Source: Nanobdellota archaeon
Lineage (GTDB): Archaea; Nanobdellota; Nanobdellia; SCGC-AAA011-G17; UBA489
NCBI GenBank assembly: GCA_030699455.1
Contig: JAUYMN010000001.1
Span: forward strand, 1 to 42,162
Direction: 5' to 3'
DNA: 42,162 nt
This document shows, one piece after another, positions 7,167 through 10,967 of this stretch (its first letter is position 1; every line of letters starts with the position of its first letter). Both the position numbers and the translations under genes were made by a program. The notes below the pieces were generated by a model, which did not search any database, had not been told where the DNA came from, and saw nothing but the letters and a program-made list of their open reading frames with translations.

Positions 7167-7238
7167 GACGGTCGTAGTCTAATGGTAGGATATAAGCCTG
7201 TGGAGCTTAAGGCGGGTGTTCGATTCTCCCCGACCGTC
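7167..7238 (+). tRNA. tRNA-His(GTG) with encoded G-1
   Basis: G-1 ACGGTCG..CGACCGT C73 acceptor; D arm GTCT-AATGGTA-GGAT; anticodon arm TAAGC-CTGTGGA-GCTTA (anticodon GTG); T loop TTCGATT. TATA-like GAAAAGTTTTATAAG lies ~30-45 nt upstream. Confidence 0.93.
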
Positions 7239-9873: not shown

Positions 9874-9964
9874 TGCTGTTTATAAACAAATTAACCCCTT
9901 TATAATCCTTTCTTAGCCCTTATAGCACCAAATTTCATGTTACTATTATAAAATGGTTACAATA

Positions 9965-9980
9965 GAAAGATTTATATATG
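9965..9980 (+). promoter_or_regulatory. Archaeal BRE/TATA promoter (GAAAGATTTATATATG)
   Basis: Consensus-like BRE+TATA; ~25 nt spacing predicts a start near 9998. Confidence 0.6.
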
Positions 9981-9997
9981 AGATTTGAACTGTATTA

Positions 9998-10085
9998 TCT
10001 ATCACCTCTTTTTCCCAGGAAGAAACTTTCGGGTTTCTTCCCCGGGTTTGCTTCGCAACAGATAGAATTATGCTTTTTTGTTTTT
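9998..10085 (+). ncRNA. Candidate structured small RNA (three-way junction) with U-rich 3' end
   Basis: Closing stem TCTATC(9998-10003)/GATAGA(10061-10066); long hairpin CCC-A-GGAAGAAACT[TTCG]GGTTTCTTCC-CC-GGG; small hairpin TTGC-TTC-GCAA; T-rich run GCTTTTTTGTTTTT; promoter correctly spaced upstream. Confidence 0.5.
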
Positions 10086-10967
10086 ATTCAACTTCTTGAC
10101 TGCTTCATCTGAATTGAATAATCTTCTTGTCAGACTAGAAATAGTATCCATACTGAAGGTTGTTCCAATGTGCGGATGACCGTTATTATAAACATAAGGC
10201 TCTTCCTTGTTATCAGTAATTTGTGGTTTTGAAACAGGATTTTTCATGGTTAATTTCCTAAAGAGATCTTCATTTTTCTCATCTTCTGTCGGCAATTTAA
10301 TTTCAGCATCCACTTTGGGTATATGCTGTATTTGTGAATGTTCCTGTCTTATTTTTTCTATTTCCTCATGTGATTCTTGTGCTTTTCTTATTAATTCATC
10401 TGTATCCGTATTTATTTGTGACCTTGGGTTTGATAATTTCAGCAGAATTTCCGAATGGTCTTCAGGCTGCACTTCTTCGGCCTTATTTTCCTGCACATAT
10501 TTTTTTGTCAGTTCAGACAAAGGTATTCCTGAAATTTCCCCTATGTCTTTTAATATTTCATCAGCTGTTGATTTCTCCTGTTCCGTTTCAGCTATTTTTT
10601 GCAACTCGGATAAATCCCTGTTTTCTATGGGATTATTTTTATGCGTTGATTTTTCCAATAAGTCTATCTTTGAACTGTAAACATCTTCAAAAGAATTAGA
10701 TCCGCCTGTAATTTTTGGTTCTTCAGGCTGCACTTCTGAATGCTCTGGCGTTATTGGCTCTTCCATATATTCTTCAGCATACTCATACATTCCTTCTTCA
10801 ACATCGCTTTTATCTACAGGATTTCCATCCTCATCAATGTACTCAACATCAGATAATAATTCTTTAGAATCACTTCCAGAAAAATCTTCTTCTGAAACAT
10901 CGCTTTTATCACCTTCGTTCATCATTTGACCATATTTTTTTTGTTTTAAATATGTTATGGTAACCAA
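10068..10967 (-). CDS. Acidic low-complexity protein of unknown function (probably begins at the internal MMNEGDKSD)
   Basis: Long uninterrupted ORF; D/E/S-rich with repeated peptides DKSDVxE and EVQPE(E/D). Confidence 0.6.
   Translation of the reverse strand: MVTITYLKQKKYGQMMNEGDKSDVSEEDFSGSDSKELLSDVEYIDEDGNPVDKSDVEEGMYEYAEEYMEEPITPEHSEVQPEEPKITGGSNSFEDVYSSKIDLLEKSTHKNNPIENRDLSELQKIAETEQEKSTADEILKDIGEISGIPLSELTKKYVQENKAEEVQPEDHSEILLKLSNPRSQINTDTDELIRKAQESHEEIEKIRQEHSQIQHIPKVDAEIKLPTEDEKNEDLFRKLTMKNPVSKPQITDNKEEPYVYNNGHPHIGTTFSMDTISSLTRRLFNSDEAVKKLNKNKKA

Follow-up and report, generated by a model that had tools for sequence, protein, structure and literature searches.

A class-wide family of small RNAs in DPANN archaea with a leader that repeats the anti-Shine-Dalgarno tail of 16S rRNA

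Results

A conserved element between scpA and an acidic-protein gene

Does the DNA between scpA and a gene for an acidic protein in a Nanobdellota archaeon encode an RNA of its own, and if so, of what kind? An earlier note on the 42,162-nucleotide stretch analyzed here (the window) had proposed a structured non-coding RNA on the + strand with its own promoter. Covariation, a positioned BRE/TATA box, and G-U pairs together with UNCG/GNRA loops, all detailed below, bear this proposal out. Judging from sequence comparison, we put at about 0.97 the probability that the locus holds a previously undescribed small RNA gene on the + strand and that its family is real, class-wide and archaeal. Small RNA genes as a kind are already known; it is the RNA family itself that is new. 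In its core (Table 1), the leader UCACCUCUUUU(U)CC, invariant and single-stranded, is followed by a hairpin of variable sequence with a CCC/GGG base, and then by UUU. The core measures about 50 nt, and the whole RNA is likely 50–90 nt long.

Table 1. Features of the RNA locus (positions in the window)
Feature	Position	Strand	Remarks
Imperfect inverted repeat TTACTATTATAAAATGGTTAC	9940..9960		Just upstream of BRE; kept in congeners (alignment)
BRE/TATA box GAAAGATTTATATATG	9965..9980	+	Same box before several protein genes (this genome, congeners)
TCTATC	9998..10003	+	5' half of proposed closing stem; absent from congeners
Conserved core	10001-10049	+	Leader, hairpin, then UUU
Leader AUCACCUCUUUUUCCC	10001..10016	+	Invariant; predicted RNA 5' end at about 10000
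Hairpin	10014..10046	+	CCC/GGG base, variable stem, UUCG-type cap (TTCG here); covariation, fold, loop tally
GGGUUU	10044..10049	+	3' side of stem base plus conserved U's beyond
TTGC-TTC-GCAA hairpin (10048-10058) and GATAGA (10061-10066)	10048..10066	+	Genome-specific, outside conserved core
T-run TTTTTTGTTTTT	10074-10085		Within last (lysine) codons of convergent gene 10068-10967

All features named in the earlier note, i.e. BRE/TATA, both hairpins, TCTATC/GATAGA and the T-run, could be located in the sequence. The closing stem TCTATC/GATAGA is present in this genome but missing from its congeners, and the second hairpin, TTGC-TTC-GCAA, likewise exists here but is not kept in relatives; an alignment with congeners revealed little conservation downstream of GGGTTT. 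The T-run, which had been taken for the U-rich end of the transcript, overlaps the final codons of the convergent gene 10068-10967, so it does not qualify by itself as a terminator of the RNA. The exact transcript ends proposed before (closed junction, U-rich end) were not upheld. The convergent gene encodes an acidic, repetitive protein that lacks a Pfam match and ranges from 177 to 478 aa among relatives.

The hairpin covaries and is formed on the + strand

Compensatory changes in relatives, which the earlier note had set as a test, were abundant. Across 83 sequences, 88.8% of the cells of a 14-pair helix pair, and two-sided changes occupy 320 cells compared to 112 in shuffles; the covariation score was 0.683, as opposed to 0.212 ± 0.013 in shuffled alignments and 0.10–0.20 with a slid partner. 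A second test on 41 window matches of the covariance model and 38 further loci gave 0.582 versus 0.190, a score that leans towards structure because its alignment was fitted to the structure. The hairpin is maintained through compensatory change, and in a sister genus its sequence is quite different while its shape is equal. Most stems are continuous or bear only a small symmetric CA/CA loop, which often follows the CCC/GGG base. The loop is usually capped by a UNCG or GNRA sequence, with 55 cUUCGg and 19 cGCAAg caps among 137 members.

Strand assignment rests on G-U pairs, of which the 137 members show 272 on the + strand, on the UNCG/GNRA tetraloops and on fold stability, the + hairpin being more stable than its minus-strand counterpart in 112 of 137 members. 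At the locus itself, the + strand folds with −22.5 kcal/mol (z = −2.94); the minus strand of the window, taken alone, reached z = −4.98.

The RNA is found across a class of DPANN archaea

By DNA search, each of the genus's four other members proved to carry the element, with 81–83% identity, and alignment showed that the inverted repeat, the BRE/TATA box, the stretch TATCACCTCTTTTTCCC and the hairpin are kept across these congeners. Among the order's 103 genomes, 50 contained the pattern ATCACCTYTTTTTCCC-N18-46-GGGTTT (reversed control, 0); it was also present in at least 114 stretches from GTDB genomes, nearly all of them labeled Woesearchaeota, Pacearchaeota or Nanoarchaeota. A covariance model (R1) raised the count within the order to 97 of 103 genomes and matched 285 of 382 genomes of the class at E ≤ 0.001, with 158 of the 193 good genomes matched; in an overlapping phylum sample it matched 300 of 380, the listed genomes all belonging to the same class. 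This class comprises archaea of the Woesearchaeota/Pacearchaeota type (DPANN). Their genomes are very small, yet most sampled ones retain the RNA; R1 had no match in a number of the class's small genomes that consist of a single contig (e.g. G110). Genomes mostly carry one to three copies, usually one, and head-to-tail tandems occur. In a 351-kb sample of the genome under study, taken as 16-kb stretches, the next best match scored 23 bits compared to 52.8 bits for the RNA.

Several matches stood apart. Six loci hold tandem RNA copies with differing hairpins. In two genomes without a canonical match (loci L306 and L307, about 1480–1600), CACCTCTTTTTCCC-N14-GGGTT lies within a larger stem. Two contigs labeled Staskawiczbacteria and Bacteroidetes contain the RNA together with archaeal TATA boxes and are probably misbinned archaeal contigs; matches on three other contigs labeled bacterial were weak and dismissed as chance. 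Also set aside were distant BLAST matches in congeners to query positions 36–57, a mixture of Shine-Dalgarno (SD) sites and variants, with one at a tRNA 3' flank.

Family members match no Rfam family

The Rfam scan that the earlier note had suggested matched no family: no Rfam 15 family reached its gathering threshold, and relaxing the cutoff to E = 10 added just three matches, all at chance level. The note had recognized no tRNA, SRP, RNase P, C/D or clear H/ACA signature. ARAGORN and a tRNA model, run for tRNA and tmRNA, found only a tRNA-His at 7168 in the window. None of 134 members had a box C (RUGAUGA) close to its 5' end, and ACA 3' of the stem occurred in 30 of 134 members versus 34 in control stretches, i.e. 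without enrichment. As a small, stable archaeal RNA bearing a hairpin, the element might be seen as a reduced form of a known RNA (H/ACA or C/D guide, SRP, RNase P, tracrRNA), but the empty Rfam result, the ACA frequency at control level and the missing C box make this very improbable. A search of the open-access literature did not bring up a description of the RNA; we found no name, Rfam model or publication for the family. Archaeal biology would thereby gain a new family of stable RNAs, and gene control would become accessible to tests in organisms not yet grown alone; the covariance model allows existing metatranscriptomes to be searched for the transcript, its ends and its partners.

The RNA has its own promoter and no constant neighbor

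We scanned for BRE/TATA boxes starting 20–62 nt upstream of the leader. Of 170 members, 96 had a box at the expected distance, compared to 2 of 165 control stretches, with a peak at about 30–45 nt. The + strand promoter claimed before is thus conserved and positioned; given the usual 25-nt spacing, the predicted transcription start lies at or near the A of AUCACC. The inverted repeat above the box, whose pattern occurs nowhere else in the genome, is possibly a regulator site or an upstream promoter element. A related AGT..AACA element was found in 51 members and in 5 control regions. Inverted repeats of the type GTTACTATT..AATAGTTAC lie above the BRE in some clades and between TATA and RNA in others.

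The placement between scpA and the acidic-protein gene recurs in the sister genus, where scpA is again divergent and the acidic-protein gene convergent. We compared neighbors at further loci, naming window genes by Pfam and other genes from sequence by eye. On the upstream side, 93 of 125 loci have a divergent gene; on the downstream side, 85 of 132 have a convergent one. Among the 132 loci, divergent neighbors include ScpA (19), RIO kinase (12) and SMC (6), convergent ones a Lon-protease-like protein (54) and S27ae (33), and DnaG lies downstream in 12; no downstream gene is constant. The location is clade-specific, the RNA is its own unit, and it tends to adjoin chromosome-maintenance genes.

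These arrangements bear on two cis-acting alternatives. In some members a + strand gene does follow closely, and the tandem arrangement is reminiscent of tandem riboswitches; both would fit a riboswitch or attenuator in the leader of the downstream gene. Divergent upstream and convergent downstream genes argue against such an mRNA leader, however, as the downstream gene points towards the RNA in most loci and in the window and none is constant; we consider this reading improbable. A 3'UTR element on the minus strand, belonging to an S27ae/acidic-protein operon, would fit the convergent S27ae neighbors and the slightly better minus-strand fold in the window. Yet wobble pairs, UNCG/GNRA loops and the stabler folds in most members all point to the + strand, as does the conserved promoter, and most members lie away from S27ae. 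Based on this strand evidence and the many members in other contexts, we reject a minus-strand 3'UTR of 10068-10967, which is extremely improbable.

The leader repeats the 3' tail of 16S rRNA

UCACCUCU was invariant in all 38 members that the covariance model found and the exact pattern had missed, a figure to be read with the model's training on exact-pattern members in mind, which favors this leader; the length of the U-tract varies from 4 to 6. Retention in most sampled genomes, with a leader fixed at nearly every position next to a hairpin whose sequence fully turns over, marks this RNA as important.

The 16S gene of this genome ends in GGATCACCTCCTATTTTTT, so that the leader repeats AUCACCUC, i.e. 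the anti-SD sequence, with an identity of 8 nt. UCACCUC, complementary to the SD, is invariant and unpaired in the core structure. While AUCACCUC is identical in the 16S tail (GGAUCACCUCCU) and in the leader, the RNA is a separate gene in which no h45-like hairpin precedes AUCACCUC, and in which UUUUUCCC and the variable hairpin come after it. Three members have a longer 5' extension with a GAGGYGA-like sequence, which might inactivate the leader by pairing with it.

The leader may act on a small set of mRNAs

The RNA is predicted to be stable and independently transcribed. We tentatively suggest, at somewhat below even odds, that its leader serves as an anti-SD sequence acting on a small set of mRNAs. 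The hairpin and U-tract would confer stability and offer a protein-binding site, while UCACCUCUUUUU, as the working part, would pair with GAGGUGA-type SD sites in a few mRNAs and block their translation; putative targets in this genome include very basic nucleoid-like proteins.

A genome search for the leader complement AAGAGGTGA gave 16 sites, including the RNA itself, compared to 3 occurrences of the reversed pattern. Of the 15 sites outside the RNA, about half directly precede start codons, among them those of three small, very basic proteins beginning MAARRK or MAARRA; in a congener, the 12-nt match AAAAAGAGGTGA precedes the gene of a 65-aa protein with 52% K+R. SD use is weak overall in these genomes, and the strong SD AAGAGGTGA is rare elsewhere in them. 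However, SD sites with AAGAGGTGA are no proof of targeting, because the ribosome pairs with them too, and leader duplex energies at gene starts showed no genome-wide excess (18 of 329 starts versus 12 of 323 controls). A narrow antisense role is thus possible but unproven. At four loci in all, the strong SD AAGAGGTGA precedes genes of short, extremely basic nucleoid-like proteins. A separate partner RNA carrying GGGAAAAAGAGGUGU was considered and rejected, as the intergenic matches were permuted or variant motif copies (on the opposite strand), coding sequence or chance.

Small RNAs with anti-SD motifs are known from bacteria, e.g. the cuckoo/alpha-r14 RNAs and RsaE/RoxS, to which the proposed mode of action may be likened. 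They share with the archaeal RNA a short, stable, C/U-rich, SD-complementary motif and tandem copies, but belong to another domain without homology and use CCUCCUCCC or UCCC, whereas the archaeal motif is UCACCUCU and is placed in the 5' leader. The cuckoo family is cited in PMC10253847. Within the archaea, sRNA154 and sRNA41 of Methanosarcina mazei mask ribosome binding sites (review PMC5867862), and either could be a parallel for the predicted mode. Like the present RNA, they are intergenic small RNAs proposed as such maskers; they come from a methanogen and differ in sequence and structure, and no matching family reached the Rfam threshold here. Hfq/Sm-associated sRNAs and Sm-class snRNAs resemble the RNA in having a U-tract next to a stable hairpin, a likeness drawn from sequence alone, but hairpin and leader are unrelated.

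The leader may instead be read by a protein

Era and Dim2-type KH proteins read the 16S sequence that is copied in the leader. The RNA might accordingly be a decoy or scaffold in which the leader, by mimicking the 16S 3' end (AUCACCUC, then U's), binds a putative reader protein, e.g. the KH protein Dim2/Pno1, the Nob1 nuclease, an initiation factor or, on the U-tract, an Sm-like protein, so that the RNA would act as a regulator in the maturation of ribosomes or as the carrier of an RNP. We regard this as rather unlikely, although the 8-nt identity with the 16S tail fits it and the conservation of the leader exceeds what SD pairing needs. A RIO kinase is the divergent neighbor in one clade, which would suit a role in maturation; this neighborhood, however, is clade-specific.

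Circular permutants, which hold both strands opposite one another, also fit a protein-read motif. Three genomes, two congeners and one distant genome, carry a second element of the form stem-GGGUUU-loop-CACCUCUUUUUCCC-stem' (z −3.6 to −4.8; loci L303, L304 and L305, near 1480–1515 on the reverse strand of the GGGAAAAAGAGGTGT match), two of the three being orthologous. In these rare forms, GGGUUU and CACCUCUUUUUCCC still face each other across the helix; if the forms are real, the strands around the helix would be the active motif. This points away from a free seed and towards a motif that is structured or bound by protein, through a protein or tertiary contact.

A broader proposal, unlikely as a whole, would make the RNA a near-essential, class-wide DPANN RNA that imitates the 16S tail, alone or as an RNP, and controls either the initiation of translation or the maturation of the small subunit; its main clients would be mRNAs that encode basic chromosome-packing proteins.
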